This document shows positions 17,274 to 48,544 of a DNA stretch of 48,544 nucleotides, piece after piece. The translations under genes and the position numbers were made by a program. The stretch is from a virus. The notes beneath the pieces are model-generated. The model saw only the letters and a program-made list of their open reading frames with translations, was not told the origin of the DNA and did not search any database. The stretch's first letter is position 1; every line of letters begins with the position of its first letter. Location: positions 1 through 48,544 of the IMG/VR virus record IMGVR_UViG_3300041964_000063; one strand, written 5' to 3'.

Positions 17274-17274
17274 T

Positions 17275-28201: not shown

Positions 28202-28604
28202 AGGAAACGCCACCGACAGATTATGATCTACTCTTGATCCGTCTGTCTAAGGCTTTTCCTGGTATCTCCTGGTTTACAGTTGAGCATTTTGGGGAATGCC
28301 CTATCCCCGTATTAAATAAGTTTTTATATGAACTTCTTAAACTAGAGAATGAAGAACGGTCTTTAATCTCTACCCCTATTGCGTTAGCGGCTGATGCAAT
28401 CTGTAGATTAAAGGTTCTAAAAAGTCTGACGTTATTTTATTCAACCCATTCTTAAAGAAAGAATTAGTCTGGTCAGCAAGAGAAGAAATTAGCGTTGAAA
28501 TGGCTGATTTAGTCTTAGACCTGGTAGGGGAGAATAAGTTACCTCAATGGGCACAGGAGGAGGTTAATATGAATACAGTAATGCTGGCTTCCTCAAAGGG
28601 TTAA
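28195..28604 (+). CDS. Frameshift extension of the tail chaperone (gpT-like)
   Basis: Reached by -1 slippage at 28189. It runs EVKETPPTDYDLLLIRLSKA, then PGISWFTVEHFGECPIPVLN and LYELLKLENEERSLI to RLKVLK, where a second, unplanned shift at the five-A run 28419-28423 stops it in this sequence. Adding one A restores KKSDVILFNPFLKKELVWSA onward to MLASSKG and TAA at 28602. The whole extension would be about 135 residues. The fusion protein helps the tape measure assemble the tail tube. Confidence 0.68.
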
Positions 28605-28639
28605 TGATTAATTCCAGTCCCTTTCAATTAATAAGCTAG

Positions 28640-31600: not shown

Positions 31601-33555
31601 GTGAAAAAGAAATTGACGCTGCTGAAAAATCCGTTAAAGAAGTAGAGATTGCCGCCAAAGAAGCCCAGCTTGCCGGTGGTTCCCCTTCTGACGTTCAGGC
31701 TAAACGGGTAGATGCCCAAGTCAAAGCCAGCAAAGAAATTATTACAATTCTGAATAATGAAAAATCAGAGATTGATAAACTCAGGGCTGATGGGACTATA
31801 TCGGCTGATGTTGCGGCTGAACGAATCAAAGAAATTGATAACCAAATTTTAGAAGCAAAGTCAGAAAGCTTAGACGCTCAAATTGAGCAACAACAAAAAG
31901 CAAATGACCTTATCCTAAAAGGAATCCAGGATGCTAACCGAAAAGCAGAAACAGAAATCGCATCATCTACCAGGCGGCAAAACCAGGCGATCCGTGCTGC
32001 TGTTATCTCCGGGTACAAAACCACAGAAGACGCTGCATTAGCCAGTGTTGATGCAGCACTGGCCACTAATCAAAAACAGATTGACTTAATCAGCAACCGG
32101 ATTAAGGAAACCAATCGGTTAGAGATGGAGGGGGTTATTTCTGCTCAAGACGCAAGGGATCGCAGAATCGACCTAGAGGGTGAACTAGGCTCAGCTCAGT
32201 TAGACAGAATCGACCTGGTACTAGATCGGGAAGAAGCTGCTAATAATGCTGTTATATCCAGCATGAGAAAACAGGCTGACCTTGAAAAGCAAAGCCTTAC
32301 TAACCTAGCCGCTGCTGTAGACCTGGTGAAAGATCGCTATAACGCACAAGAGGCACTGATTAGCCAACAGCTACGGCTAGAACAGGCCCTAAACGGGTTA
32401 CAGCAACAAAGGTTTAGCAACGCATCTACAGCCCTACAGAACCAGGCTAGACGGCAGATAGAAGTATTGCAAGCTCAGGCAGACGCTAGCAATGATGAGA
32501 ACGAAAAACAGAAAATCCAGGGTCAGATCAAAGACATCCAAAATAAAGCAGATAAAGAAGCTAGCGAGTTAGCGTTAGCCGCTGCTATACAAGCCGAAAA
32601 GAGTCTAGCCAGACAACAGCAGTTTGAACGGGAGAGCTTAGCGATTAAACAACAGATCGCTAGAGCTGAGGCTGAGAATCTAGCCATCCAACAGGAGATC
32701 GCTTTACTCGAAAGTAAAACAGCTTTATCAGAAGCTAGACGGAATAACGCTAGTCAAGAGGAGATTGCCAATCTAGAACAGATCGTAGGGTTACGGTCAA
32801 AAGCACTAGAAAGTGCTAACGGCAATATTGGCCGTTTGGATCAGCTCCAACAACTAGAACGTCAAGAGGTCGGGGTAAACCAACAGACAGCTAGGGAGCA
32901 AGCTAGTTTTAATAGGTCTGAAGCTGAGAAAGACCTTAGGGATGATAAAGGCAATTTCAAAGATGAGCGTACTTCTTTAGAACGTACTCAGGTTGATACA
33001 TCCATCGTTGCTGACGCTTCCCAATTTGAGATTAATACTCAGGGCCTAGCTACCAGTTTTGATCAAAGCCTGCAGTCGATGCTTACCCAGGTATCAGCAG
33101 GAGAAGCGTTAATAGCTGGTGAGATTAGGAGTCTCGGTAGAGGTGGTTCTGCAACCCCTCAGCAGAGCCTAGAACCTGGTCAGGTATCAAATACTGTTGA
33201 GGCTGTACCAGGGGAACTAGAGGCGCTTACATCCCAGATTAGGGCATTGAGCGGGGGGTTAAACGTTCCCCAAGATCAAGCCAGTATTGCTAGGGAGATC
33301 AGGGAAAAACCTGTTATGAGTCCTGAAACCTTATCGGTTCAAGCCACGTTAGCAGAAACTAGCGTTAGCACTACAGGATCAGGGGTAGGAGGTAACACCG
33401 ATGTAGTAGCAGGGATTAAACAACTAGAGACCGCAATCCTAGCGCTAGCTAACAGTCCTAGAAACCTATCAGTTACTACCCCTGATCCTGTAGAAGATAC
33501 CCGGCAAATTTTAAGGGATGTCGCTGAAATGTCTACCCAGGGGGTCAACGCATGA
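28640..33555 (+). CDS. Tail tape measure protein (reading frame broken once)
   Basis: About 1638 residues if one missing base near 28955 is restored. The first frame, 28640-28984, ends QQDLPVH; the second is open to 33555 and begins SDDTAGLASTLGDLSAELNY. The core at 28960-29450 has the TP901-type pattern of repeated Ala/Ser helices (LSAGYSDTADAAEVLRASNN, GVSFEELSAFVATSTAAGLQ). Hydrophobic segments at about 29830-29950 could insert in the host membrane. The rest is long coiled coil with three internal repeats, the ruler that sets tail length. Its length predicts a tail near 250 nm by the usual 0.15 nm per residue. No strong Shine-Dalgarno. Confidence 0.87.
31336..32330 (+). repeat. Three internal repeats of about 110 residues in the tape measure
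   Basis: Each unit starts near LLSGKSTESEV, QLAGGSPSDV or VISGYKTTEDA, then shares a G-x-I-x-x-x-D-A-x-x-R-x-x-x-I-x-x-E-L core: GVITAEDAAKRLLAIEGEL, GTISADVAAERIKEIDNQI, GVISAQDARDRRIDLEGEL. Each ends in a charged helix. The borders are approximate. Confidence 0.8.
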
Positions 33556-34007
33556 ACAGCTTAAAACTATCCTTCGGGGGGATTAGTGTTTTACTAAATA
33601 AGTTTGCCCCTGGTAATTATCCTAGAGAAAGACCCACTTACCAAATTAGTAGAACAGCTTACGGCGCTATCAATAGAAGGGGGTCTGCCCAAGAGGAACC
33701 TTTTCTTTGGCAAGTTGACACTATCGTAAACAAAACTGATAGAGATAACTTGTTAGATCTGCATAATGCCTATAGCCAAAATCCAGGGCCAATTGTCTTA
33801 GATGATCTCGTTAGTTTTTTCAGTGAGCCTGTTAGAACTAGAGCATTAGCAGAAGGTTCACCAGCGGCTATAACTGTTAACGGTAGGATTCGATATTTTG
33901 CCCGGTTTAATGTAGAAATAGAAGGCACAATGTCTGTGTTAGGATTGGGTGGCGGTTACTACCGTGTAGGTTTTCAATTGGTAGAAACATCTAAGGTTTT
34001 AGCTTAG
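33552..34007 (+). CDS. Distal tail protein (tail tip)
   Basis: 151 residues, overlapping the tape measure end by ATGA and followed by a GTG start overlapping its stop. It has PGNYPRERPTYQISRTAYGA, WQVDTIVNKTDRDNLLDLHN and beta strands around RIRYFARFNVEIEG. Size and place directly after the tape measure suit a distal tail or minor tail protein that starts the tip complex. No diagnostic motif. Confidence 0.6.
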   Translation: MNSLKLSFGGISVLLNKFAPGNYPRERPTYQISRTAYGAINRRGSAQEEPFLWQVDTIVNKTDRDNLLDLHNAYSQNPGPIVLDDLVSFFSEPVRTRALAEGSPAAITVNGRIRYFARFNVEIEGTMSVLGLGGGYYRVGFQLVETSKVLA

Positions 34008-36870
34008 TGACGGTTGTTGATCTTAGGGCGATACCTGTTCAAGTTTTGGTCAACAATGGGTTTGATGACTTAGACGTTTCTATTGCTTTTCAACAGCTAT
34101 CTTGTAACAGCCATACGTGGGATGATCGGGGCTGGTTCCAACCAGAGGGATCACTAACGTTAGCGGCTTATGTTGATGGCTTTAACGAGTCTTTTGATTG
34201 CAGGGTTAACCCTAGCAGATGGGCACCCGGTAATACCGTTAAAATCCTGTTATGGTTTGGTTATTGGATACCATTACCCTGGGTTTTCAAAATCCTAAAG
34301 CACCCTAACCGTCCTTACCCTGGTAATCCTGATATAACAATTAATTTAGGTACTGACGCTACTTTACTAAGCTATCGAGAGCCTGAAGGCGATCCTACCG
34401 GAGTAGAGTACGGTACCAGTACCAGTGCAACATTTTTGGTTAATGCGGCTCTAGCAAAAGCAGGGGCACCCCAACTTACAGATACAATTGAAAACCTATT
34501 TTTACCGTTTAGCCCTGGTAAAAATCAGGGAGGAAGCTGGATTAATTATGCTGGTCAAGTTGCCTACTCAGGGGGATATATCCTCTGGCAACAAGGTAAC
34601 GGGTTAATCAGATCAACACCTTTAACAACATCTGGGTTAGTACCATTTGCCCACTATGTTGTAGGTCGGGACGAAGCAGATTACATACCGGAGATGGCGC
34701 AAGAGTCACCTCCTGAAGATGTACGTTTCACGGGAACCACTTACAAAATAGATGATGTTGGAGACACTACAAATGTCTCAATAGATACTGTAGACGGTGT
34801 AACTGTAAGAACAACCGTTACCTATAGAGACAGGGATACTAACAGCCCTACTTATATTGAAAAAGTAGAACAGCCCGCTAATGTCGTTTTACCTATCTTA
34901 TTCCCCAGTAATGGATCGCTAATTACAGATAGTGAACTTACCCGTGACTGGTTTTATGCAAATAATACAGCAAGGTTAAACAGAGAAATTGAAACGATAC
35001 GAGTTCCTGTATCTAGGATTTTTCCTAATGACACTTTTGGCAATCCTACAGATTTGACAATAGAGACTAGACAAACAATTGATTACACGTATGATTCTGA
35101 AAATACTGTTCTTTCTAAGCGAACTACTTAGAAAAAGCGGTAATTTCTGGTATTACTGTAACCGTAGCAGTATCACAGATCATAATTGAAAAGTGGGAAA
35201 AGGTTGGGCCGGAAGAGTACACGTATAACCGTGTTTTAGTTAACCGGGATGGTTCAGTTAATCCTTTGCCTCAACGTAGAGGGGGTTCAACCAATAATAA
35301 ACCCCCGTCTACACAGTACAGACCAGCGGAAAAGCAGCGTACAGAAAAGAAGTTTTTAGGAGAAGCAAAATTTACTAGCCCCGCTGGTAATGGGTTTGCT
35401 GAAAAACTTTGGGCTGTTACTCTTCCGTCTGGAATGTGTGTCAGTAATCAGCAGTGTCGGGATCGTGCTCAAACGTGGGGGAGTATCAGACAAGGTAGAC
35501 AATTTGCTATTCAATGGGCTGCGGATATTACCCAAGGTTGGCTTGAAAATTTTAACCCTGTGCGTCGAATAGATTTTACAGTTGATGGTAGACGTACTGC
35601 TTATTTGGTAGAGGCGCTAAATATTCAGGTTGATAAGAAATCAGCGGCTATAGGAGGGAGAGGCATTGAGTTAGGGTTAGTGTCTGTAGATGCGCCATTA
35701 CCGTTACCATCTGTCCCAGGCGATCCCCCTACTCCTGATTTGCCAATACCTGAGACCCCTTTTGTAGTGTCTCAAAACATTGACGTTGAGATCATTGCTA
35801 CGGCTAGAAGATGTGCTGGGTTTGTATTAGGTACGTTAGTTGATGTAGCTGTTATCGCGGCCACCGCTAGACGGGGGAACATGGCGGTAGATGTCGAACT
35901 ACCGATAGTGATTGAGGTAGCAGCAACTTCACGGCGTGGGTCGATGGTGGTAGGTGTTGAGCAACCATTAGCTATTGAAATCACGGCCACCGCTAGACGA
36001 GGTTCTATGGCCGTAGGGGTTGAGTTGCCAGCGCTGATCAATGTTGAGGGTACGGCACGGCGTGGTTCAATGGCAGTGTCGGTAGCAGGATTTGAACCTG
36101 AAACCCTAACCCTACTTGCAGCGCTAACAGGCACCTATGGGTCTGCTCGACGGGTAGAAATGAATGCACTGATCAAGTCACTTAAGGATGCTGGAGTTTG
36201 GGCTACCCTCAATCAGCTCTGCGTTGCTGGACTCAATAGCGGCGATTCACTAATCAACTGGCGATCACCAGGCACACTTAACGCTACCCTGGTGAATGCC
36301 CCAGCATTCACCGCTGATCGTGGTTTTACTGGTAACGGCACTAACAGCTACATCAACAGCAACCTGACACCATCAACGATTGGCAGTAACTTCACCCAAA
36401 ATTCAAACTCGATTTCGGTCTACAGTCGCACCGACAGCAGCGGCGATTTTGCTGAGGTTGGGCTATTTGCTGGTAGCAACCAATTTGCCATCACCGCACG
36501 GCGAACGGTTTCGGGAACACCAAACAGATTCACCGGGCGGGCCAATGAATTTGCGTCCGATGCCGACAACGGCACTAACTCAGATAGCCGAGGGTTGTTT
36601 TCCACAAATCGAGTCAGCAGCACTTCGGTTGTTTCCTACCGCAACGGCACTCAAATTCAGTCAAAATCTACAACTTCCGTTGCCCTGAGCGGCTTTAATG
36701 CTCCCCTTGCAATTGGCGCTCTACCCGTTGTTGGCAGCAGTAGTGTGTTTTTCTATTCGACTCGACAATACGCCGCCTGGGCGCTGGGGGCGGGCCGGTC
36801 GGCTGACCAAGAAGCGGCGTTCAATTCAGCGTTGACGACCTATCTGACGCACATTGGAGCGGCAGTGTAA
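34007..36870 (+). CDS. Tail tip/receptor-binding protein with ARRG repeats and LamG-like end (frame broken once)
   Basis: The 374-residue frame 34007-35131 and the frame open from about 35134 to 36870 are one protein of about 953 residues if one base (probably T) is restored at 35130 (TT-EKAVISGITVTVAV). The first part looks like a tail hub: ISIAFQQL, WFQPEGSLTLAAYVDG, and Trp-rich strands. The middle has YLVEALNIQVDKKSAAIGGR and a Pro-rich linker. Then follow five ATARRGSMAVGVELP repeats, and from about 36100 a concanavalin/LamG-like domain (LINWRSPGTLNATLVN, GFTGNGTNSYINSNL) typical of glycan binding. That last part is clearly GC-richer than the rest. Likely binds the host surface. Confidence 0.68.
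35780..36091 (+). repeat. Five tandem protein repeats ATARRGxM
   Basis: Units of about 22-24 residues: IATARRCAGFVLGTLVDVAV, IAATARRGNMAVDVELP, VAATSRRGSMVVGVEQP, ITATARRGSMAVGVELP and VEGTARRGSMAVSVAG. The first is degenerate. They form a beta-rich, basic stalk between the hub-like part and the LamG-like domain. Confidence 0.82.
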
Positions 36871-37622
36871 TGGGGTACTTCCGCCTACTGCTATCGCTGC
36901 TGATCGTGCAGGCCCACACCAGTGCTCCCGGCGACCACTACGCCCTGGCCAACTTGGCGGTGCTCCTGTTCTACGCCATCAGCGGCTACGGCTGCACGGC
37001 GGCGATGCAGGGCCGTTATCGGGGACGCCCTTTACTGTTTTTGGTAAACCGCTACCTGCGGCTGTGGCCCACCTATGCGATCGTTTTTGGACTCTCTTGC
37101 TGGCTCATGCTGTGGGTGCCCGTGCCATTGGCTAGTATCCCTAGAGGGTGGGCATGGATGGCTAACCTGTTGATGCTGCGGGCTGATGCGGTGCCAGCGG
37201 CGTGGGTAATCCCTTACATGCTCCTGGGCTATGTAGCGATTGGATTGGGGGCTAGTGCTACGGCAAGGCGGGCTGGGCTGTGGCTACTGGTGAGTTTTGC
37301 ATGGGCACAGTATCATGCGTTTTTGCTGGACTGGGGCGACTACTATCACAGCATTGCGGCTTGGTCATTGGCCTACTCAGTGGGGGCTGTCATCTACTGG
37401 CTGGGGCTGGTAGTACCGAAAGATCAGGGGCTTGGGGCAGTGGCGGGGGGGATAGCCTTTCCTGTGTTCCTGGTGCATTTCCCCATTCAGGCTGCTTTGC
37501 CACTAGTCCCAGGCTGGTCGCTGTTCTTTGCCACGCTATTTCCTACGCTGGCATTGTCTTGGGTGCTCTGGCGATTCGTTGAGCTGCCCGTTGATCGTTT
37601 TCGTAAATCACTTAGGAGTTAA
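36870..37622 (+). CDS. Acyltransferase 3 family membrane protein
   Basis: 250 residues with about seven or eight hydrophobic helices. LRaiAallVv-x-H in the family is matched by LLLSLLIVQAHTS (catalytic-type His16), then LFYAISGYGC and LVNRYLRLWPTYAIVF with the conserved Arg, and FPVFLVHFPIQAAL near the end. This family (OafA-like) transfers acetyl groups to surface sugars at the membrane. It is shorter than usual (about 340). The ATG overlaps the previous stop (TAATG). The gene is strikingly GC-rich with different codon use, so recently gained, probably from a host. Phages use such genes to alter the receptor glycan after infection. Confidence 0.83.
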   Translation: MGYFRLLLSLLIVQAHTSAPGDHYALANLAVLLFYAISGYGCTAAMQGRYRGRPLLFLVNRYLRLWPTYAIVFGLSCWLMLWVPVPLASIPRGWAWMANLLMLRADAVPAAWVIPYMLLGYVAIGLGASATARRAGLWLLVSFAWAQYHAFLLDWGDYYHSIAAWSLAYSVGAVIYWLGLVVPKDQGLGAVAGGIAFPVFLVHFPIQAALPLVPGWSLFFATLFPTLALSWVLWRFVELPVDRFRKSLRS

Positions 37623-37624
37623 TT

Positions 37625-38020
37625 ATGGGTTATTCAAATGCTCGCGCTATCGCCGCTAATGATGCGCTGATCAGCACTATTACAAAAATCGAGTTTTACA
37701 CTGCTAACTATGGGACGTTACTAGGTAGCACCAATGCAACTTTTGGGGCTTCTGCTATGCAGTCAAACCTTGCAGTAGCAAATTTGCAAAGTACCCCGAT
37801 TGCAGATACCTGGGATGCATCGGGTACAGTGGGATCAGTACGTTGTAGGAATGCCAGTGATGTAGTGGTCATAGAACGTTCAGATGCAAATGCTGTTGGC
37901 CTATCAAATAGTACGACAGCATTTATAAGGCTTTCATCGCTATCGGCTGTTGCAGGGGGAGCGTACAACATTACGTCTGGTACTCACTCGTTTGATTCAA
38001 GGATGGAGAATGAGAGCTAA
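37625..38020 (+). CDS. Unknown 131-residue tail-region protein
   Basis: ATG after CTTAGGAGTTAATT, two bases past the acyltransferase stop; the base composition returns to the phage average. Ala/Ser/Thr-rich with repeating strands (SNLAVANLQSTPIADTW, VGLSNSTTAFIRLSSLS). Probably a tail tip or fibre-associated beta protein. Its last base overlaps the next start. Confidence 0.55.
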   Translation: MGYSNARAIAANDALISTITKIEFYTANYGTLLGSTNATFGASAMQSNLAVANLQSTPIADTWDASGTVGSVRCRNASDVVVIERSDANAVGLSNSTTAFIRLSSLSAVAGGAYNITSGTHSFDSRMENES

Positions 38021-38646
38021 TGGCTGAAATGTCCGCACGACAACGATCATTGATCGCCACTTCCAAAGCGGTTACAGCGGGTACCCAAGCCCAAGCTGAA
38101 ACTGAAAAAAAAGCCCGTGAGCAACCGATTACAGGCACAGCAACGGGTTATGACCCGATTACGGGGGATTGGTTTGTATCTACCCCGGATGGGGGTACTA
38201 TCCGGGCACAGTCTCTTACAAACGGGGCATTAATTGGAAGACGCTTACCTATACAACGATTTGGGGATTCCCAGACCAGTTCTGTTAATGCTCCCCCTAC
38301 TGATCCGGATCAGGGGTGGATCGTTGCTGAAATGGAATTGTTACAGCAAGATCTATTTCAATTATTAGGAAAGGACTTATCTACAGGAGGGGTTGAATCT
38401 CCAGAACCTAGGCACTATACGGTAATTCTAAATAACGACGCTAGGAGAAGAGTTGATACTTTGAGTATTGCTAATTTTAACGCTGATGACACCCCTGGTA
38501 CAAACGGGTCAGGGGTTCTTAAGATTAATGGAGCTGTAGTCACGTTAGGGGAATCTGTATTAGAGCTAGGATCCAGACTAACCATTCAAATAACAAATAT
38601 TGGCACAGGGTCTTTGTTTTGGTCGATAGCGCTTACCAGAGTTTGA
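38020..38646 (+). CDS. Unknown 208-residue tail-region protein
   Basis: ATG overlaps the previous stop (TAATG). A helical N-terminus with QAETEKKAREQP, then TATGYDPITGDWFVSTPDGG, an OB-like or beta-barrel segment as in baseplate spike proteins, then a Gly/Asn-rich region and a C-terminal beta domain (LTIQITNIGTGSLFWSIAL). Fits a tail tip or fibre linker. Role inferred from position. Confidence 0.55.
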   Translation: MAEMSARQRSLIATSKAVTAGTQAQAETEKKAREQPITGTATGYDPITGDWFVSTPDGGTIRAQSLTNGALIGRRLPIQRFGDSQTSSVNAPPTDPDQGWIVAEMELLQQDLFQLLGKDLSTGGVESPEPRHYTVILNNDARRRVDTLSIANFNADDTPGTNGSGVLKINGAVVTLGESVLELGSRLTIQITNIGTGSLFWSIALTRV

Positions 38647-38647
38647 T

Positions 38648-39529
38648 ATGGGATTATTGCCGTTTGTTTGGTACGGTGGGAGATCTTCTTTTAAGTCTGC
38701 CATTATCTACCGCAAGGATGCAGGCAACAACGTAGAGATCTGGCTTCAAGACGAAGGGCTAGATCCAATCCTTATTAATCAGGTACCTAAGCGGATAATC
38801 CTGAACTGGGCATACACTGGGGCGGGGGCTACATCCCAAATTCTTGGATACGTCAGGAAGCCAAACGGCAGTCGAATAGATGACTTGATAGAAGGGTTTG
38901 GGTCAGGGGGTAGCGCAATCTCAAGAGAGAATTATCTTGTCAACTACGATGGGCCTGTAATAGGGGGGCAAGCACCGACATTGACACATGTAGGCTTTCT
39001 GTCGCAAGGGGATCGCTTTTATGCGTTCCTGAACGGGAGCGAGAGTGTTTCTAATCAAACGGTTTTGGTGGGTTTGAATCAGAACAGCGGCATAGCGACA
39101 GTAATGGTAATCAGCATCAGCAGTTACCTGGTCATCGGCGCGGCAAAAACGCATGATGCCGTTTACGTATCAGGTCGTCATGGCCTTTATGCCGACCAAT
39201 CTACACCTAGCATAGGGGATGCCTACAACTCTGCTTTTTATTGGGATAATGGAGCGCTTTCGGTATTTTCTCGGGTTGCCGGGGACACCCCATCGGTTAA
39301 TCCTGCTGACTTCAATTTGCTGAGTTATCAAAACGATCCAATAAGTCCAACCCTTAATATTTTTGACGGAGTGCAATACACTTTTAACGGGAACCGAAAC
39401 AACCTCATAAATGGCGGGGTAGTCTCTGATTTCCTAATATCTGTCAATGGGTCACCTCATACGATCTCTATCAAAGGCGTAGAATCGGGTGCTGTTGAGG
39501 TGCTAGCGGTAAAGATTATTTCTACCTAG
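38648..39529 (+). CDS. Probable tail fibre or tip protein, 293 residues
   Basis: Beta-rich throughout, with Gly/Ser/Asn turns (GSGGSAISRENYLVNYDG, ISSYLVIGAAKTHDAVYVSG) and a C-terminal jelly-roll-like end (NGSPHTISIKGVESGAVEVL). Last plus-strand gene of the tail module, where receptor-binding proteins normally lie. It converges with the EAL gene, four bases away, with no visible terminator. Confidence 0.58.
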   Translation: MGLLPFVWYGGRSSFKSAIIYRKDAGNNVEIWLQDEGLDPILINQVPKRIILNWAYTGAGATSQILGYVRKPNGSRIDDLIEGFGSGGSAISRENYLVNYDGPVIGGQAPTLTHVGFLSQGDRFYAFLNGSESVSNQTVLVGLNQNSGIATVMVISISSYLVIGAAKTHDAVYVSGRHGLYADQSTPSIGDAYNSAFYWDNGALSVFSRVAGDTPSVNPADFNLLSYQNDPISPTLNIFDGVQYTFNGNRNNLINGGVVSDFLISVNGSPHTISIKGVESGAVEVLAVKIIST

Positions 39530-39533
39530 TACA

Positions 39534-40838
39534 CTAACCAGTTACATCAATAATCTTTTCAATAGGCAAAGGTTTTCCAAACAGATACCCCTGCCCTAAA
39601 ATATCAAGCTCTGGTGTATTTTCTTTGACAGCCTCACAAATCCAAAGTCTCTCCTCTTCTCGCTCAATACCCTCAACCACTACACTTAAACCAGCACCAT
39701 ACGCAACAATTAAAATAGCCTTAAAAATAGCTTCTTTTTTCTTATCACCTTTATCAATATCTTCTACAAAAATACGGTCTACTTTAATACCATCTAAAAT
39801 TAACTCTCCTAACAACCAGGAGAAACCCGCATTACCTGATCCAAAGTCGTCAACAAAAATAGATTTAATATTTAGAGTTAGAAGCTTTAATAGCGTGGTA
39901 TCTTGCAGGTCTTTAATAGATGACCGTTCATTTATTTCAATATGAATTAATCTGGGGTTTACTTTTGATTTTGATACAGCTTTATTAAAAACACTTTCAA
40001 AGTTATCAAACTGGTAAATTTCTTCTAGATTGACCGATAAAAACAAGCCTGCTGTATTTGGGTGCTCTTGCATTTGAGCTAACAGCTTACAAGCTAACTC
40101 AATGACTACCTCTTCTAGTTTGTGTAGCAACCCAATATCTTTTGCAGCGGGGAAAAATGTTAATGGTTGGTAACGTTTATCTTTAGATTCTTTCCAACGT
40201 AATAAGCACTCAAACCCAACAACCTCTTTAGTCCCTAGCCTTACGATAGGTTGCATGTAGAGTTTGAAATCACTAGGGGTTTCATAGATTGAGTGTGTTA
40301 ACTCTTTTTCAATCTCGATTCTGTTGAATACCTTAGCTGTGTCTTTCCCTGCAACCTCTATATAGGTCCCAGGGGTCGCCTCAGCGATAGCCAGGGCCAA
40401 ATTAGCGTACAGTGTCACCCCCTCAATGGATCGATGCTCCTCAACCAGGGTGGTTGAATCACAAAGACCAATTGTAGGCGTAAACCTTAGCGTGTGTCCT
40501 TTGTAAGGGATCGTAGATTTTAGGCAAGCGATTAGTAGACGGCGGCAAAATGGAATAGCTTTTTGTTGGCTACCGGAAAGAATAAAATAGAAAGCATTAC
40601 CAATTTGGCAAAACTTCGCATTTTTTGGTAATGACCTCTTTATTATCTCGTTAAACCTTTCAACAATTAAATCTCCAGCTTCAAACCCGTAGTTTCTATT
40701 GATTAGATGAAATTTGTTTATCTTGCAAGAAACCATAACAAAATTAGGGTCTACCTCATTAGATGGAGATAGACCCTCTTTAAGTTTTTCCCAAAAGGAA
40801 AGCGGTTGAAGATTTAACACAATGCTCGGGGAATGCAT
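39534..40838 (-). CDS. Cyclic-di-GMP phosphodiesterase (degenerate GGDEF plus EAL)
   Basis: 434 residues. The first 170 have the GGDEF fold but the signature is IGNAFYFIL (79-87) in place of GGDEF, so no cyclase activity is expected. The EAL domain (about 175-430) keeps the catalytic set: MQPIVRLGTKEVVGFECLLRW (E210, ECL for EAL), SVN (N270), HIEINE (E301), VDDFGSG (D330, D331), DGIKVD (K352), VVEGIE (E389) and GQGYLFGKP (Q416). It should hydrolyse the second messenger c-di-GMP. No sensor or membrane part is present. It is the last gene of the replication operon, 14 bases after the resolvase gene. In cyanobacteria c-di-GMP governs motility and aggregation, so the phage may reset host behaviour. 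Confidence 0.9.
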   Translation of the reverse strand: MHSPSIVLNLQPLSFWEKLKEGLSPSNEVDPNFVMVSCKINKFHLINRNYGFEAGDLIVERFNEIIKRSLPKNAKFCQIGNAFYFILSGSQQKAIPFCRRLLIACLKSTIPYKGHTLRFTPTIGLCDSTTLVEEHRSIEGVTLYANLALAIAEATPGTYIEVAGKDTAKVFNRIEIEKELTHSIYETPSDFKLYMQPIVRLGTKEVVGFECLLRWKESKDKRYQPLTFFPAAKDIGLLHKLEEVVIELACKLLAQMQEHPNTAGLFLSVNLEEIYQFDNFESVFNKAVSKSKVNPRLIHIEINERSSIKDLQDTTLLKLLTLNIKSIFVDDFGSGNAGFSWLLGELILDGIKVDRIFVEDIDKGDKKKEAIFKAILIVAYGAGLSVVVEGIEREEERLWICEAVKENTPELDILGQGYLFGKPLPIEKIIDVTG

Positions 40839-40852
40839 TCTATTAGTGTAGC

Positions 40853-41461
40853 TTACGCTGCTTTCTTCTTTGATTTAGCCTTCTTCTCTTTTGCCAACGG
40901 TTTAAGATTAACTAAGTAGTTAAACCACGCTTTTCTAGCGTCAACATCCCTCCCCATAGTCAAACGAGATTCACAATCTAACCGCCATCCTGTAACCGCA
41001 ATAGCAATAGCGTCTAATGCATCATCATCAGAATGGGTTACCCCAAATAGCGCTTTTGTGAATGCCCGGATATCACTCTTAGCAGCGTTACCTTTTGCTG
41101 TGCAGTGCAGCTTAACCTCTGTAGAGGCAATGTCTTTTAGAACAACCCCTTTGAAAGCGTAAGCCAGATGAATAACACCTAACGCTTTAAGAATGTTCTG
41201 AGAATTCGTGATTGCCTGTTTGCCGTAAAACCGGGGATCTTCAATGATCACAGAATCCGCTTTATGGGAATCTGTGATCAGGGTCATCGCTTCAAAAATT
41301 CGTTTTAACCGAACATGAAAGGGGTCTTGTGGGTTAGTGCGAATAGACCTGTACCCTACTAACGTAGGTCTTAGATCCGGGTTTGCAGGGTCAGCTTTGA
41401 TTTCAGCGATCCCAATCGTTCCATACCCAGGGTCTACCCCCTGGTAAATCTTTAGGGTCAT
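40853..41461 (-). CDS. RuvC-like Holliday junction resolvase
   Basis: 202 residues. GVDPGYGTIGIAEI at the N-terminus carries the first catalytic Asp, SVIIEDPRF the Glu, and HSDDDALDAIAIAVTG the C-terminal acidic pair of the RNase H-like fold. The end is a Lys-rich tail (AKEKKAKSKKKAA) for DNA contact. Such enzymes resolve branched replication intermediates before packaging. ATG after CCGCTAGGAGAGCACACTT. Next gene on each side is 14-30 bases away in the same operon. Confidence 0.88.
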   Translation of the reverse strand: MTLKIYQGVDPGYGTIGIAEIKADPANPDLRPTLVGYRSIRTNPQDPFHVRLKRIFEAMTLITDSHKADSVIIEDPRFYGKQAITNSQNILKALGVIHLAYAFKGVVLKDIASTEVKLHCTAKGNAAKSDIRAFTKALFGVTHSDDDALDAIAIAVTGWRLDCESRLTMGRDVDARKAWFNYLVNLKPLAKEKKAKSKKKAA

Positions 41462-41491
41462 AAGTGTGCTCTCCTAGCGGTGTTGTATTGG

Positions 41492-43591
41492 TTAAGGGGC
41501 AAGGATTGCTTTCTTAGCTCTGTTTTTTTCGTACCAATCAGATACCTCCGGGTAAACGTTTCGAGTAGCTTCCCAAAGTAGGTCACAGGTTTTTTGCGCT
41601 TCTAACTGTGCGTTTTTCTTCCAACGCAGATCAAGCATGTGCATTAGCGATCTGAGGTTGAAAGATACAACAAAGTGTTGACGATAATCAAATGGCAACA
41701 TTCCCCTAGCGTGTTCAGGGGCAAAACCTGCTTTTAGCTTTTTCACGTATAGCCCTAGGGCATCATAAGCTAGCTGTAGGTCTTCTTCTAGCCAATTCTG
41801 CGTGTAGTCATACTTAGCCGCTTCACGGTCTCCGTAGTGGCCAATGGGGCGGAAATAAAAGACTTTGTGCAGGGGTTGAAGAGATGCCAGCTCGTTACAT
41901 AGGTTATAGGCGTTAATTAAACCCTGCGATGTATATCTAAAAGAGTTATGAACTACTAAACCATTTGCTACAAAGTTATGCCAAGGGCCATCAACCTCAA
42001 TATCATAGGTTGTTTGAACACCTATGTACTCAACAGAAACTACGTCAACTGGGTGAGACCTCAACTTTTTAGGCTTTTTTTGTTTTTTAGGCCAATTTGT
42101 AAAGGTTAGATCTGGCTTAAAATCTTTGGCAAAATCAAGCTCTGTGTTAGTATGGTGAACCCATTCATGACAGTCTTTGCAGAGGGTAACAAGATTATCA
42201 AAGTGGTAGGCTAAAGAGGGATCGGCGTACACGGGGATTAAGTGGTGAGCGTGAAGGAATTTATCAGGCATACCACACATTTGGCAAGTGTAATTAAACC
42301 TTCTATGCACTTTTGGGGCAATGTTCCTTGTCCATGCACTGATTAATTCTCTTTCTTCAGAAGTACCCCCCTTCCAAAAATGAGAGTCTTTTCCTTTTTT
42401 TACATTTTTGGAAGACATCTTAGACCTTGCTTCCCTAGCATCGTTAGTGAGGTTTAACGAGTAATCTCCACACAAGCCCTTATTCCATGGTTTTTGTGTA
42501 CCAGGTGCCCTTTTGTTGATGTGGATAGCATACTTATAACACCATTTTTTAATGGTTTCTTCTGAGCACCCTGCTATAGACGCCATTACATCAATAGTTA
42601 ATCCTTTGGTAATTTGATCTAACAGCCATTTTTTGTTTCTATAAATCCCATTACCTACTACGGCCTTGACTCCTTTTGCGTAACCACGCTTAAGTGATAT
42701 TTCATAATGCTTTGCCCAATTATGAATAACATTAGATGAGCAGCCAGCGAGATCCGCAATATCGTTAGCGTTTAATCCCTTAGCAGCATGGTAAGATAGC
42801 CAAGTTTCTTGTGTGTAAAGAGCGTCTGTTCTTACAACGCCGTTAACCATTACTGTACAGTTTTTAGTTACAGCTAAGACGATATTATCTGAGTTAGTAA
42901 TTAGTCCCAGAGCTTTGCCCATTGCTTGCCAGCCTTGGGATGTATACAACCTGTGCTCTTTTGTACAGTCAAGTGTCTTACCATCAGATAAAGTAATCCT
43001 GTAAACAGGCTTTTCACCGCTGCAAAGTATGTCCTTAATATGACCAACCTCAAAACAGTTGGTTTCTTCATTAAGAACCCGCAAGTTCATTTTTTTAATT
43101 CGTGTCTTTGTGTCTCTTCTGTATTGACCGGGGGGTTCATTATTGCGACCCCTTACCTTTCGGTCTCTGACAGCTTTTTCTCCGTTTTCCCACAACTCAT
43201 AAAGGTCTTTGATCTTTTTTCTAAGTTTTGGGTTAGTCACACCGTTTGTGTTTACGAAAGTGATATTAGTATCACCAGCGAGACACTGACAATCGAAACT
43301 CACCCCGACACGATGTGTGCGTAATTGCTGCATGACTGAGTGAGGAATGTGCCCAAAAGCAACCTCAATTATTCCATTTTCCAGAGGCCCCCAATGGTGC
43401 TTTTTGCCTTCTAGTAAATTATCAACAATTATCTTTCCGCATACCGCATCTGTAGGCATGTCGCCACGTTCTATCACATCAATGATGTATTCATGGCAAT
43501 AATCTTGATGTAGGTGTGCCCATGCTAATTGATTAGGAGTCAACCCATCTAGTAAATTAGCTTGCATGTAAGGATCAAAAAATTCAGGCAT
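41492..43591 (-). CDS. thyX: Flavin-dependent thymidylate synthase ThyX, split by an intein
   Basis: Makes dTMP from dUMP with folate and FAD. Start chosen at ATG 43591 (MPEFFDPYMQANLL), which follows AAGGAAATAATT; a start at 43651 would run into the upstream gene. The 699-residue precursor minus a 447-residue intein leaves 252 residues, normal for ThyX. The signature region is LRTHRVGVSFDCQ-SFRYTSQG, cut by the intein; HHWGPLENGIIEVAF precedes it and FVVSFNLRSLMHMLDLRW follows, as in the family. With the ribonucleotide reductase at the other end it gives the phage its own dNTP supply, both depending on splicing. Confidence 0.93.
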   Translation of the reverse strand: MPEFFDPYMQANLLDGLTPNQLAWAHLHQDYCHEYIIDVIERGDMPTDAVCGKIIVDNLLEGKKHHWGPLENGIIEVAFGHIPHSVMQQLRTHRVGVSFDCQCLAGDTNITFVNTNGVTNPKLRKKIKDLYELWENGEKAVRDRKVRGRNNEPPGQYRRDTKTRIKKMNLRVLNEETNCFEVGHIKDILCSGEKPVYRITLSDGKTLDCTKEHRLYTSQGWQAMGKALGLITNSDNIVLAVTKNCTVMVNGVVRTDALYTQETWLSYHAAKGLNANDIADLAGCSSNVIHNWAKHYEISLKRGYAKGVKAVVGNGIYRNKKWLLDQITKGLTIDVMASIAGCSEETIKKWCYKYAIHINKRAPGTQKPWNKGLCGDYSLNLTNDAREARSKMSSKNVKKGKDSHFWKGGTSEERELISAWTRNIAPKVHRRFNYTCQMCGMPDKFLHAHHLIPVYADPSLAYHFDNLVTLCKDCHEWVHHTNTELDFAKDFKPDLTFTNWPKKQKKPKKLRSHPVDVVSVEYIGVQTTYDIEVDGPWHNFVANGLVVHNSFRYTSQGLINAYNLCNELASLQPLHKVFYFRPIGHYGDREAAKYDYTQNWLEEDLQLAYDALGLYVKKLKAGFAPEHARGMLPFDYRQHFVVSFNLRSLMHMLDLRWKKNAQLEAQKTCDLLWEATRNVYPEVSDWYEKNRAKKAILAP
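41945..43285 (-). other. ThyX intein with HNH homing endonuclease
   Basis: 447 residues from CLAGDTNITF to NFVANGLVVHN, with Ser as +1. Splicing block B is TKEH and the C-terminal His-Asn is normal. The insert has two helix-turn-helix units (LNANDIADLAGCSSNVIHNW, LTIDVMASIAGCSEETIKKW) that look duplicated, a HFWKGG segment, then an HNH nuclease (CQMC, LHAHHLIPVY, NLVTLCKDCHEW). Most intein nucleases are LAGLIDADG; an HNH type with tandem helix-turn-helix units is less usual. Confidence 0.92.
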
Positions 43592-43601
43592 AATTATTTC
43601 C

Positions 43602-44060
43602 TTAAAACTTAGTGGTAATCTTGTAGAAATTGATCGGGATACATGGAACAATAGTTACCCAGTAATTAGACTTTTTTTGAAAGGTTGTTTCTGTTTTCTC
43701 TGACCTAAAACCGATCCATGTACAAGTAGGATCAACGTTAAGTCTCAAGTAATGCCTATTACTAACCCCGTGTGATGGTTCGGTGTACTCAATCTTTTCA
43801 AACGTCTGCTTTTCTCGTAGCACAATAGGATAAATAATATCCTTAATCGCGTAATCTCGAAAATCTTTCTTTTCCCAATCCCAAACCCTCATAAAAAACT
43901 GGTACTCTGGGTGGTATTCTGTTTTTCCATACCAGGGAAATAGAAAAGCTACCTTACGAAGATTAGTCTCACCTTTCCAGTTTTTGTAAATTAACTGCTC
44001 TGGTGTTGTGAGGTGCAATAACGAGTTTATAACATTGGCAATCAACTTAAAGGTTTCCAT
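43602..44060 (-). CDS. Unknown 152-residue protein
   Basis: Helical N-terminus (METFKLIANVINSLLHL) then a basic, aromatic body (YGKTEYHPEYQFFMRVWDWE) with DPTCTWIGFRSEK. It overlaps the upstream membrane-protein gene by 14 bases and ends ten bases before the ThyX start, so it is part of the operon. No domain recognised. Confidence 0.6.
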   Translation of the reverse strand: METFKLIANVINSLLHLTTPEQLIYKNWKGETNLRKVAFLFPWYGKTEYHPEYQFFMRVWDWEKKDFRDYAIKDIIYPIVLREKQTFEKIEYTEPSHGVSNRHYLRLNVDPTCTWIGFRSEKTETTFQKKSNYWVTIVPCIPINFYKITTKF

Positions 44061-44253
44061 TGCTCCTGTGCCCTAAGTTTTTAATGAAAATTAAAATAGC
44101 CGCTACAAACCAAAAAGGCCAGATAGAGGAAATCAAAACACGGCGAATGAAAGAGAGTTTCCGTCTATTGGTAAAAACCTTTTTACAATCATCCATCGTC
44201 TTTAGGAAAAAATGTAGGTAGGTTAAACCTAAAAACCACCAAAACAGATTCAT
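44047..44253 (-). CDS. Small 68-residue membrane protein
   Basis: Two hydrophobic segments, MNLFWWFLGLTYLHFFL at the start and ISSIWPFWFVAAILIFI at about 42-58, with a basic loop (KKVFTNRRKLSFIRR) between. Likely a hairpin in the inner membrane. It overlaps the next gene by 14 bases. Function unknown; size and topology allow a holin-like role, but its place in the replication operon argues against lysis. Confidence 0.6.
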   Translation of the reverse strand: MNLFWWFLGLTYLHFFLKTMDDCKKVFTNRRKLSFIRRVLISSIWPFWFVAAILIFIKNLGHRSNGNL

Positions 44254-44260
44254 AGAGTAC

Positions 44261-44476
44261 CTAGTTAGGTTGACAAAAAAAGTAGGAGATAACTAACCTT
44301 TCCGAGTAGATCTCAACGTCTGTAAGACTGTCTAGAGTCGAACGCAACTCTTCATAAACGTAACCGTAAGCTCCTTCGGTTTTGTAAGCTAAAACCACCT
44401 TGGCTAATGTGCGTTCATACCGGCAACCGACAGGGTTAAAGCAATGCCCTGTAATTACCGTAAAATAACTTTTCAT
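44261..44476 (-). CDS. Unknown 71-residue protein
   Basis: Overlaps the upstream gene by ATGA. It has YFTVITGHCFNPVGCRYERT and a helical middle (LAKVVLAYKTEGAYGYVYEE), ending in VISYFFCQPN. Four Cys in total. No domain recognised. Confidence 0.58.
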   Translation of the reverse strand: MKSYFTVITGHCFNPVGCRYERTLAKVVLAYKTEGAYGYVYEELRSTLDSLTDVEIYSERLVISYFFCQPN

Positions 44477-44706
44477 GCAGCCTTAGCCCCCCGGATTAGG
44501 TCACTAAGTTTCTGTGCCAGTCTGTCTAGAAATTGATCTAGAGATTCAGCATGAACCGTAGGGGGACTATCTACTATGGTGTTGAATAATGGCCCTGTTA
44601 GGAGAGCATAATAACGGCGGTTACGTCGCTGTTTGATATGTACTAACCAGGGGCCTATCTTGGTTTCACCTTGAGATAGTTTTGCTTTGATCTGTTGTGT
44701 GTTCAA
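44473..44706 (-). CDS. Unknown 77-residue basic protein
   Basis: ATG after ACGCTAGGAGAAACAGAATTTG. Basic N-terminal strands (KIGPWLVHIKQRRNRRYYAL) and a helical end (LDQFLDRLAQKLSDLIRGAK). It could bind nucleic acid. The overlap with the next gene (ATGA) shows coupling. Confidence 0.6.
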   Translation of the reverse strand: MNTQQIKAKLSQGETKIGPWLVHIKQRRNRRYYALLTGPLFNTIVDSPPTVHAESLDQFLDRLAQKLSDLIRGAKAA

Positions 44707-44755
44707 ATTCTGTTTCTCCTAGCGTTGATTTGTTTGATGTTAATTCATTCTAAAC

Positions 44756-45205
44756 TTAAATAGAAACTATCGGCTTAGAATTCTTTTTATTTATAGGAAT
44801 TTGCTTTATAGGTTTAGTAGGCTTTGTGATTTTATACAGATTAGAGTAATCGGTTGAACCTAAGATATAGATTTCTGTGGAGCATTTTACCATGTACTTT
44901 TTTTGTTCAAGATAACTAGCCTTATGTATAAAAGCGTTTTTAATAACTCTTTCTATCACCCTGGGATGGCCAGAGGTTGATAGAAATAATGTTGCTGTAG
45001 GCTTTTTACAATTTTTCTTAAATGATTTTACCCTTTGTAGTGCTTCGCTAAAACTACCCTCTGTCATTCCAATTTTGAATCGGTCTAATAATGGCTCAAG
45101 AATTTGAATACAATACACCCAGCCGTATACGTTTTTGAACTCGCTTTGGTAAGCGGGAAAACCTTCTGGTAAAGATATGTTTTTCTTTGGTGTTCTTATT
45201 AACAT
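44756..45205 (-). CDS. GIY-YIG-like (T5orf172/MUG113) protein
   Basis: 149 residues. GWVYCIQI, then FKIGMTEGSFSEALQRV and HPRVIERVIKNAFIHKA follow the pattern of the T5orf172 branch of GIY-YIG domains (G-x-V-Y, x-K-I-G-x-T, R, E), in which the Gly-Ile-Tyr motif is relaxed. Such proteins may cut or bind DNA. It starts behind the promoter at 45253 with a very short leader and no Shine-Dalgarno. The C-terminus is a Lys/Pro-rich tail (TKPTKPIKQIPINKKNSKP). Confidence 0.7.
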   Translation of the reverse strand: MLIRTPKKNISLPEGFPAYQSEFKNVYGWVYCIQILEPLLDRFKIGMTEGSFSEALQRVKSFKKNCKKPTATLFLSTSGHPRVIERVIKNAFIHKASYLEQKKYMVKCSTEIYILGSTDYSNLYKITKPTKPIKQIPINKKNSKPIVSI

Positions 45206-45224
45206 AATGGCTGAATGTATCTAA

Positions 45225-45253
45225 ATTTTAACAACTTAATTGCTAGCTGTCAA
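45225..45253 (-). promoter_or_regulatory. Phage standard promoter (minus strand)
   Basis: TTGACA at 45253-45248 with GCTAGCAA; -10 TAAAAT at 45230-45225 after 17 bases. It starts ten bases after the DNA polymerase stop and drives the operon down to the EAL gene. Unlike the other copies it has neither the GAGCAAA leader nor the CTAGGAG ribosome site. Confidence 0.8.
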
Positions 45254-45262
45254 CCTAGATAA

Positions 45263-47929
45263 TTATGCTTTCTCCAACCATGAAGGAACAATACAATCAG
45301 ACGGGTCAGGATTACCGGATTCAGTAGGTATCCATTTTCTCAAATACAATTCCATCCCCTTACGAACGCTGTTCATAAATGCTGTAGCAACCGACTCCCT
45401 AAACAACTCAAAGCAGCCAGCGTTTTCTTCATCGTGCGGGAAGTTAGTAAACCTAAACTTCCAGTGGGGATTTTGATCGGCTAATTTTTGCATCTCGATC
45501 ATGCTCCACTTCATCGTACAGGCTTCAGTACCTAACCAAGCCGTACTAACAATGTCGGTGCCTTTTGCGGCAAGCTTATCGTTTTTATATTTATCTGGCC
45601 GCATTTCTAAAAACACTCTTCGACCTGACAAAGAATAAGCAACTGCCCATTCTTTGACGTTTTGAGATACACCAAAAAACTCTTTTTGTAGTTCAGGGCT
45701 AATAACAATAGTGGTATCTCCAGCCAGGTTCATTAGCCAGCGCTGTAGGCTGTAGGTACCGCAATAGGAGTACCTAAAAGCGTCAATTGCATCTTGAGCT
45801 TCTTCTAGGGAGATCTCCCCTCCTGTGCTTTCTACGGTACCTTTCAGGGTGTACTTACCTTGCAGGTTGATAGATCCATAAAAAGCTGGCTTACCTTTGT
45901 TTCTTAAAGATGCCACCTCATAATGAAATTCGTGATCATGCTCCTTATACCAGACCACCATATTTTTATAATGCCATTGCCCAGGGTCTTTACCGTTCAC
46001 AGCAGCAAGACCAGCGGCGGTGTGAATGTGTACATCTTCCCCCTCTCTAAAGATCTGCATCATCAACAGATCCCCGTGGGAACCAACGTATCTAGCGTGT
46101 AGCTGTGATCCATCCATCGCTAGAAACTGAGACCCAAACCTTACCCCATCATTTGTTATTAAGTTTTTATCGGTGTACTTAAACACTGAACGGATCGAGG
46201 GTAAATTATACTTTCTCAAATCCTTAGCCAGGTTTTTAGGGTTAGCAGGGTTCTGTAGGTTAATCCCTAAACCTGATCCGTCACTATCCCCCCGTGAGTC
46301 TTTCCCACAGGAAGATCGCCCGGTTCCTTTGCGGGCCATAACAAAATAGTTACCTCGCACAGTACCGTTAATTTCCTGATCTCTAACGTTCTCCAAGTAT
46401 TTAATGAACACCTCAACAGAACGATAAAGAGACAATGCCCGGATTGGTAGGATGTCTGTGAATGGGGCTAACGCTTCAGTGTCAGTCGATAGTTTCTCAA
46501 CGCCTTTAACGACTTTATGGGGCCTAACTTCCCTGACGTTTAACCCGTGTTCAGTTAGATAAGTTTCCCAATCAAACTCTTTAATTGTCTTCAAAACCTG
46601 AGCGCTTGATTTAGGATTTGACTGTGGGAATAAGTCAAACCAAGGAGTAATAATTTCCTTGGCAACCTGGTAATAATGCGTTAAAGCAGAGTTAACGGCG
46701 GCAACGTCTACAGGCATACCGTATTGTTCCATGTCGGCAAAACAACTGGAAACCTGACTCTCCCTAATTGCAGCGTCTAGAGGAGACCCAAACAATTGAG
46801 ACTGCAACGGGAAAAGGTTTGCTGATTGATCTAACAACTGTCTCAGCCGATCAACTAACAAGTAAGTAACAACAGCGTCCCTAGCACCATAATTAATCTG
46901 ACGGTTAGACAACCTGGGTAGAGACCAATCGCTTTTTTGTTGGGATTTATCTACTGTTATCCCTAACGCACGTTTTGATAATGGCCCCATGCCGTGCTTA
47001 AGTGGCAACCCAGCCCATAGGCTAATACTAAGTTGCTGAGTATCTGCAATATTCCTAGGAGAGATACCCCAATGCACTCGTAAAAACCCTTCATCAAACT
47101 TGTAGTTTGCCCCTCTGGTTTCTACTTCCCAGGACTCACATTGACGCTTGAAAATATCCCAAAAATTAAAACCGTCAATCTCAATTTCTGCCAAGGCTTT
47201 ATACGCTGATTCCCTATCTGCGTTAGCCCCTCCTAGATCGATTACCAGAGTGGCTAAATCTGGCAATGTAATCTGAATCAAACGGATCTGTCCTTGCCTG
47301 GGGTTAAGGCCACCTTCTTTATCAAAGACCCCAAAGGTCTCTAGGTCGTTTGCAAAAGCAGGGGCATCTCTAAGACCTCTCAAGGCATCTAGGAATTTTT
47401 TCTGTAATCCCCTATCCTTCGCCCACAGATCAACGTTCCACAGGATTACAGCGCTGTTTAACTTCTCATCAACAGACGAATGAAATTGAGCGGTTTGTTC
47501 TGCCAGAAACCCTGATAGCAAGCTTTCTTGTCTATACGTTGCAGAATCTACAGCTTCAAAATCCCAACCGGGGCGATCCCGCTTATCCCAATTCGGGTTA
47601 TTTTGGTCAATACCTCCGAAGGAATCTTGTAACTCTTGTGCTACAAATTCAGCAGCTTGTAATACAAGGTTAACGGTAGTCTCAGAATATAAAAGCGTTA
47701 TATCCTGATCAGATTTTGCCCAGTAGGTTAGCCAGGGTTTATAAAAGCTGGCAAACTTAGAAGAATACAAACGGTTAGACCATACCTCGGAAAACTCACG
47801 AATGGTACGGGTAACGTCTGCTTTGTACAGAGCTAGAAAAGACGTGTCTAGGTCAGTTGCAACTACCGGGAATCTCCCCCCGTGGTGATGGGTTTTTTCC
47901 CAGATACTTGCAAAATAAATTTTACCCAT
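45263..47929 (-). CDS. Family A DNA polymerase with 3'-5' exonuclease
   Basis: 888 residues. Exonuclease: FANDLETFG (D195, E197), GANYKFDEGFL and YGARDAVVTYLL supply the DEDY acidic set. Polymerase: motif A MDGSQLHARYV, motif B LRNKGKPAFYGSINLQG, motif C FPHDEEN. In motif A the usual Glu (SQIEL, position 710 in E. coli Pol I, the steric gate) is His. There is no 5'-3' nuclease domain; the first 190 residues, including THHHGG and a long helical stretch, are not recognised. It is the replicative enzyme of the phage. ATG after CTGGGAGAATTTAAGA. The promoter for the operon below begins just after its stop. Confidence 0.93.
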   Translation of the reverse strand: MGKIYFASIWEKTHHHGGRFPVVATDLDTSFLALYKADVTRTIREFSEVWSNRLYSSKFASFYKPWLTYWAKSDQDITLLYSETTVNLVLQAAEFVAQELQDSFGGIDQNNPNWDKRDRPGWDFEAVDSATYRQESLLSGFLAEQTAQFHSSVDEKLNSAVILWNVDLWAKDRGLQKKFLDALRGLRDAPAFANDLETFGVFDKEGGLNPRQGQIRLIQITLPDLATLVIDLGGANADRESAYKALAEIEIDGFNFWDIFKRQCESWEVETRGANYKFDEGFLRVHWGISPRNIADTQQLSISLWAGLPLKHGMGPLSKRALGITVDKSQQKSDWSLPRLSNRQINYGARDAVVTYLLVDRLRQLLDQSANLFPLQSQLFGSPLDAAIRESQVSSCFADMEQYGMPVDVAAVNSALTHYYQVAKEIITPWFDLFPQSNPKSSAQVLKTIKEFDWETYLTEHGLNVREVRPHKVVKGVEKLSTDTEALAPFTDILPIRALSLYRSVEVFIKYLENVRDQEINGTVRGNYFVMARKGTGRSSCGKDSRGDSDGSGLGINLQNPANPKNLAKDLRKYNLPSIRSVFKYTDKNLITNDGVRFGSQFLAMDGSQLHARYVGSHGDLLMMQIFREGEDVHIHTAAGLAAVNGKDPGQWHYKNMVVWYKEHDHEFHYEVASLRNKGKPAFYGSINLQGKYTLKGTVESTGGEISLEEAQDAIDAFRYSYCGTYSLQRWLMNLAGDTTIVISPELQKEFFGVSQNVKEWAVAYSLSGRRVFLEMRPDKYKNDKLAAKGTDIVSTAWLGTEACTMKWSMIEMQKLADQNPHWKFRFTNFPHDEENAGCFELFRESVATAFMNSVRKGMELYLRKWIPTESGNPDPSDCIVPSWLEKA

Positions 47930-47968
47930 TCTTAAATTCTCCCAGCTTTATTTTTAATATACTAGCAC

Positions 47969-48343
47969 CTAGATACCCTTAATGGGTTTGCCTTGAAGTA
48001 ACGTTTGCCAGGTCTCAAAGTCGATAAAATATTGCCGGGTTTCATAGTCGTTTGGGATAGTTGAAGTTTCATCTAGAGAGGAAACGGGACAACCTATTTC
48101 TTCAATATCTTGCACCTGATCACTAATAGAAACAATTAACCATTAGCGATAGGCTGAACGTAGAACGGTCTCCATTTAGGGCCTAGCCCGTATGTTGTGG
48201 CTAGGTAGACGGTTAGAGGAGAGGGTCATACTGGCGATCATTGTGGTTTCTACTTTCTCAGGTATTGGTGTTTCAAAAAAGCTGTCAGATAAACCGTAGT
48301 AATCTTTTAAGACTTGACCTACAGCGCTAATTTTCCGTGCCAT
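47969..48343 (-). pseudogene. Unknown gene of about 126 residues, frame broken twice
   Basis: Three frames read as one protein: MARKISAVGQVLKDYYGLSD to ETTMIASM, then PSPLTVYLATTYGLGPKWRP to FYVQPIANG, then LIVSISDQVQDIEEIGCPVS to WQTLLQGKPIKGI and TAG at 47971. One C is missing from ACCC near 48224, and one T from GGTT near 48130; both are homopolymer losses. The ATG follows AGGAAGAAGAATAGG, two bases after the upstream stop. If read as it stands the gene ends at 48176 after 55 residues. No domain recognised; it precedes the polymerase gene in the operon. Confidence 0.6.
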
Positions 48344-48344
48344 C

Positions 48345-48544
48345 CTATTCTTCTTCCTCATCTAAGCTGTTAACGGCAATCTCTAAAGACCTGACTATAG
48401 TTGCTGTACAATTAATAAAAGCCTCTATCACAGTACTAAATGACTTTTGGGAGGTAACCCCGGAAAAAGACCAGACATAACCATACTCATCATGCTCAGA
48501 AATTGTTAACCCTGGTATCTGTTTGTCTATTAATAAAAGGATTT
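48345..48544 (-). CDS. C-terminal part of an unknown protein (partial)
   Basis: The frame is open from the window edge and gives 65 residues ending NSLDEEEE. It has SEHDEYGYVWSFSGVTSQKS and a hydrophobic helix (VIEAFINCTATIVRSLEIAV). It is one base from the next gene, so in the same operon. No domain recognised. Confidence 0.6.
   Translation of the reverse strand, partial: ILLLIDKQIPGLTISEHDEYGYVWSFSGVTSQKSFSTVIEAFINCTATIVRSLEIAVNSLDEEEE

Follow-up and report, generated by a model that had tools for sequence, protein, structure and literature searches.

A putative sensor-less EAL c-di-GMP phosphodiesterase encoded next to ruvC and thyX in a cyanophage genome

The DNA analysed here, referred to as the window, comprises the whole of a linear IMG/VR contig that is 48,544 bases long (IMGVR_UViG_3300041964_000063), and one of its minus-strand genes (39534-40838) probably encodes a soluble cyanophage EAL c-di-GMP phosphodiesterase that lacks a sensor, is likely to be transcribed with thyX and ruvC, and would deplete the c-di-GMP of the host. 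Its sequence, domains, active-site residues, predicted fold and genomic position, as well as the phage and cyanobacterial context, are direct observations. At least one filamentous cyanobacterium cannot live without c-di-GMP (PMC13075795), and a phage-borne c-di-GMP hydrolase, if active, would represent a direct rewiring of a host signal during infection. The gene product is also small, apparently soluble and easily assayed, and belongs to a family of known chemistry.

The open reading frame starts with ATG and encodes 434 amino acids without internal stops, comprising a degenerate GGDEF domain (about residues 15-165) followed by an EAL domain (about 190-430), with no sensor domain found. The EAL match (PF00563) has an E-value of 1.2e-39 and a score of 136.5 bits against a cut-off of 31.3, spanning residues 190-403 and positions 12-223 of the 236 in the profile, and the GGDEF match (PF00990; 1.2e-9, residues 15-150) is likewise over its cut-off, which rules out chance for both. 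Since nothing beyond these two domains passes the cut-off in a Pfam scan of the protein, it consists of the GGDEF-EAL core alone, with no sensor attached. An AlphaFold2 model built with 37 viral relatives (mean pLDDT 88.5) predicts a TIM-barrel EAL fold, with lower confidence near loop 6, where residues about 301-320 and 331-350 are the least certain. Foldseek ranks the GGDEF-EAL part of PA0575 first among full-length PDB matches (E 1.8e-31). Taken by itself, the EAL domain of the model fits the c-di-GMP complex 3n3t (TM 0.89, rmsd 2.0) and the pGpG-bound PdeA (TM 0.89) equally well. The preliminary description of this DNA had placed an EAL phosphodiesterase here, and the exact reading frame, the strength of the EAL match, the predicted barrel and the complete catalytic set all agree with it.

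The same description held that the GGDEF signature had been lost, which is confirmed: in the alignment with 86 relatives the signature reads GNAFY, and three further positions are changed (metal Asp39 to Lys, Arg78 to Gln and Lys153 to Glu). As both the GG(D/E)EF motif and the metal Asp are missing, the GGDEF half appears to be dead as a diguanylate cyclase and may serve as a scaffold.

The active-site columns of the EAL half were read from the same alignment, with the roles of the metal, catalytic and substrate residues taken from PMC9683572. All metal and catalytic residues are present (E210, N270, E301, D330, D331, K352, the base E389 and Q416), together with the loop-6 stabilising Glu (E304) and the substrate-contact residues Q196, P197, R214, D331 and D354. 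Among the 31 EAL columns with at least 95% conservation in the 86 relatives, 27 are retained. Since none of the 87 terminal branches in the gene tree is longer than that of the phage protein (4.38 changes per site), this retention suggests that the active site has been under selection. The claim that every residue needed for hydrolysis is kept thus stands for the metal and catalytic set but is overstated for its surroundings. The substrate-contact Tyr of the Y-Q-P stretch is Met195; E233K and T303N fall at positions invariant in 86 of 86 relatives; S337A replaces a Ser found in 85 of 86; and Y336N and S338G affect positions that are constant or almost so, loop-6 conservation among the viral relatives being biased because these, unlike the cyanobacterial ones, were picked by the loop-6 pattern. 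Loop 6 reads DFGSGNAGF where DFG(T/A)GYSSL is expected, with DFGSG retained and YSS replaced by NAG.

These changes lend some weight to the main rival reading, which we consider unlikely though not negligible, namely that the protein is an impaired EAL that binds c-di-GMP, alone or with a partner protein, as a sponge or receptor in the manner of LapD or FimX. It would account for the degenerate second half of loop 6 (GNAG for GYSS), for T303N and for the Tyr-to-Met195 change, and a degenerate loop 6 can reportedly accompany loss of activity, according to work on RocR. Receptor-type EAL domains, however, lose metal ligands or the general base, all of which are present here; moreover, the 2r6o, 5m3c and MorA phosphodiesterases match the phage protein far better than FimX does, and the LapD family reaches only 3.7e-14. 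Active EAL domains carry the loop-6 motif DFG(T/A)GYSS, yet its serines are conserved in only 61-65% of 8082 EAL sequences and its second half has been termed flexible (PMC2994820), so that the protein may well be active, while the loop-6 changes mean that full activity is not assured. The phage EAL is also a natural experiment on the extent to which such an enzyme depends on loop 6.

The changes within loop 6 and adjacent to the substrate residues could also be read as a shift in specificity, with the EAL domain destroying, in an anti-CBASS-like manner, a cyclic dinucleotide other than c-di-GMP that serves in defence against phages. Messenger-depleting counter-defences are known in phages (PMC12657218), and an earlier statement that second-messenger hydrolases in general are rarely reported in phages is wrong for this reason. 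Nevertheless, the substrate contacts Q196, R214, D331 and D354 are present, no match was obtained with PADLOC (whose models cover defence proteins, not counter-defence ones), and no prokaryotic STING was detected in 262 cyanobacterial genomes in a search run without a positive control. The suggestion that the protein acts against a nucleotide-signal defence thus finds no support here, the empty STING search being uninformative in itself, and we regard such a shift as improbable, below the sponge-type receptor.

The placement of the gene is informative as to its expression. It starts 14 nt past the stop codon of ruvC (40853-41461, minus strand), which encodes a RuvC-like Holliday junction resolvase, and the rightward tail region ends in a gene (38648-39529, plus strand) that converges on the EAL gene with 4 nt between the stops, so that the EAL gene lies inside phage DNA rather than in a host flank. 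Upstream of ruvC on the minus strand are the gene for a ThyX thymidylate synthase split by an intein of 447 aa that carries an HNH endonuclease domain (41492-43651), a 152-aa ORF belonging to phrog_3715 (43602-44060) and a 149-aa ORF with a weak T5orf172 match (44756-45205), the latter being the first gene past a phage-type promoter (TTGACA-17-TAAAAT with an extended -10; 45225-45253, minus strand). The DNA polymerase A family gene (45263-47929, minus strand) lies beyond. This promoter heads the leftward unit orf44756-orf43602-thyX-ruvC-EAL and is one of 11 repeated copies, located at 5169, 5552, 6455 and 8705 on the plus strand and at 45253, 26114, 25049, 22923, 22179, 21340 and 19414 on the minus strand, which probably serve as the early promoters of the phage. 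The copies share a constant GGTTGACAGCTAGATA-like upstream half with the -10 about 17 nt further on, and in many cases GAGCAAAC and the RBS box ACCGCTAGGAGA come next. The box is a phage-wide translation signal: 19 copies lie 4-11 nt ahead of ORF start codons (plus strand: 657, 5229, 6514, 7349, 8760 and 9337; minus strand: 44724, 41479, 26359, 25001, 24648, 23081, 22861, 22125, 21625, 21286, 20952, 19367 and 18741), one more lies inside a gene at 38439, and CGCTAGGAG occurs 20 times in the window against 0.19 expected.

While ruvC has such a box (41470-41481, minus strand), no repeated promoter, RBS box or clear Shine-Dalgarno sequence precedes the ATG of the EAL gene, and the simplest model is that transcription starting at the 45253 promoter probably continues through the gene. 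Its description as the end of a replication operon with ThyX and the resolvase holds as far as position is concerned, the EAL gene being the 3'-most member of the leftward thyX-ruvC unit; co-transcription is something we infer as plausible from the 14-nt gap and the upstream promoter, for a gene without a recognisable RBS. Within the first 100 nt of the reading frame, a 12-bp hairpin followed by AATTTTG (40746-40777, minus strand) was observed, and the 146-nt start region has a folding z of -4.25; the hairpin is a possible attenuator, or may be due to chance. An Rfam scan of the whole window returned no c-di-GMP riboswitch and no family at all.

The missing RBS box and the internal hairpin, together with the decayed GGDEF domain and the extreme branch length, might instead point to a captured host gene that has no function in the phage and is decaying. 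Against this, the reading frame is full-length and free of stops, its codon use resembles that of the other phage genes (r 0.86; GC 0.378), its active-site columns are selectively retained, and it is packed tightly between phage genes, while the long divergence argues against recent capture. A useless passenger therefore seems a poor explanation and, like the specificity shift, ranks below the receptor reading, with a c-di-GMP phosphodiesterase remaining the preferred interpretation.

A cyanobacterial host for the phage, as proposed earlier from the DNA alone, is well supported by sequence comparison. The polymerase matches Nodularia and Pseudanabaena phages only, which are thus its nearest relatives, all 12 of the 12 best matches of the class II ribonucleotide reductase are from cyanophages, and the tail genes at 34007-35131, from 35266 and from 38020 share 73-82% identity, where they align, with those of a Mu-like prophage on contig C4 of the cyanobacterial genome G180. 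That prophage (about 68-104 kb of the contig, L229-L231) also shares MuF-like genes with the window phage, although no transposase was recognised in the latter. An EAL gene at 56 kb of the same contig was discarded as a candidate prophage gene, since its neighbours are host genes and the prophage is about 12 kb away. No close relatives of the EAL protein, the polymerase, RuvC or the tail proteins were found in IMG/VR, and the virus collections searched contained neither a close relative of the window phage nor a homologous phage with an EAL gene at the same place. DNA searches over window positions 1-20000 and 28545-48544 gave no clear short high-identity matches to CRISPR spacers.

Several other genes of this phage deserve mention. 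The ribonucleotide reductase gene (674-5035, plus strand) also contains an intein, which together with ThyX makes two intein-bearing nucleotide-metabolism genes in one phage. A 506-aa protein (19416-20936, minus strand) combines a methyltransferase-like N-terminal part with DUF4942, and its gene is preceded by the phage RBS box. In the tail region, an acyltransferase-like gene of the O-antigen acetylase type (36870-37622, plus strand) has a GC content of 58% and atypical codon use and was probably acquired recently.

The donor of the EAL gene is likely to have been a cyanobacterium, judging from sequence similarity. Relatives at E<=1e-30 occur in 214 of 291 cyanobacterial genomes, indicating that c-di-GMP turnover enzymes are widespread in the probable hosts. 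The top cyanobacterial relatives are CHASE2-GGDEF-EAL proteins (157.7 bits, 32% identity), the best scores found anywhere, and in a like-for-like comparison the top cyanobacterial protein reached 156 bits versus 112 for the top protein from a viral contig. The best NCBIfam family is the cyanobacterial Tlr1612 c-di-GMP phosphodiesterase, with a score below the full-length cut-off. The position of the phage protein is not fixed by the gene tree because of its very long branch.

The preliminary view that EAL genes are rare in phages holds only in part. The BFVD collection of predicted viral structures contained GGDEF proteins only and no EAL barrel, a scan of 84,980 genomes with the phage protein gave no confirmed match, and among the annotated-phage EAL matches inspected the sole genuine-looking case is the temperate Citrobacter phage Chris1, most others being mislabelled or doubtful. 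On the other hand, EAL relatives are encoded on at least 165 IMG/VR contigs. In many of these the gene is close to one end of the contig and could belong to adjoining host DNA. A few are located deep within large contigs, next to phage replication genes, among them L073, in a contig of 224 kb at 1.3 kb from the gene of a DnaB-like helicase, and L032, in a 184-kb contig near an RNA ligase gene; the families phrog_11823 and phrog_22021 also hold matches to the GGDEF-EAL core or the EAL part. No gene for ThyX, RuvC or a polymerase adjoins an EAL gene in any of the 80 viral loci compared, whose flanks were often short. Among the rejected candidates, the Acinetobacter phage MD-2021a record (CAKLQH02/CAKLQF02) holds an ilv operon and thus bacterial chromosome genes, a gut scaffold labelled as phage carries dxs and xseA and is cellular DNA, and AS-1 contig_14, with 72% GC, is probably not a cyanophage and is likely mislabelled or contaminated. 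The phage-collection records CAKLQH02/CAKLQF02, MT835504 and DQ115821 (loci L006, L004 and L003) are likely to be mislabelled or contaminated.

A coherent scenario can be proposed for a c-di-GMP phosphodiesterase in this setting, in which activity, timing and effect are what we infer for the EAL protein. Its gene is probably transcribed together with thyX and ruvC, starting at the 45253 promoter. The protein would be made early to midway in infection, along with the replication genes, and would convert c-di-GMP into linear pGpG through the metal-dependent chemistry usual for EAL domains. In the absence of a sensor domain, the enzyme would act constitutively, whenever the protein is present, and host c-di-GMP would fall during genome replication. 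One of the two likeliest outcomes is that receptors would be freed of c-di-GMP, which in Anabaena would leave CdgR to control cell size and viability. In that organism, c-di-GMP below about 80% of the normal level shrinks the cells and below about 50% kills them via free CdgR (PMC13075795), so that even modest activity could have a strong effect. The other is a shift away from a sessile, aggregated or receptor-bearing state, which may help the progeny to disperse or keep rival phages out; because the receptor of phage N4 in E. coli is a glycan under c-di-GMP control (PMC8669469, PMC8669472), such exclusion is conceivable by analogy. A bolder version, to which we attach little probability, is that the altered loop 6 frees an unregulated EAL enzyme from dimer or sensor control, and that c-di-GMP is thereby driven below the threshold of CdgR occupancy, switching the size, viability or surface programme of the host for the benefit of the phage.

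Comparison with known systems places the phage protein among several neighbours. It has the GGDEF-EAL core in common with the L180-type CHASE2-GGDEF-EAL proteins (about 850 aa) and the Tlr1612 family, at 30-32% identity. These cyanobacterial relatives possess a sensor (CHASE2 in L180, a response-regulator domain in L184), an intact GGDEF domain and a canonical loop 6, whereas the phage protein has nothing beyond the core, in which the GGDEF domain is dead and loop 6 altered, and sits on a very long branch that is not firmly joined to them. With the LapD/FimX-type receptors it shares the joining of a degenerate GGDEF domain to an EAL domain, but its metal site is complete and the residues lost in such receptors are retained. 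Fold and catalytic residues are common to the phage protein and the solved EAL phosphodiesterases (2r6o/3n3t, MorA, PA0575, PdeA and RocR), from which it differs in the second half of loop 6, in T303N and Met195, and in having no attached sensor. L073, L032 and Chris1 resemble the window phage in carrying GGDEF-EAL genes in phage DNA, two of them near replication or nucleic-acid genes, yet the EAL proteins of other phage contigs are 519-725 aa long, include a PAS domain in L032, show about 25-29% identity, and are encoded by genes of which none adjoins thyX or ruvC. A phage EAL gene is therefore rare but has precedents, and what is new in the present case is the combination of a bare core, an altered loop 6, a cyanophage and a thyX-ruvC unit.
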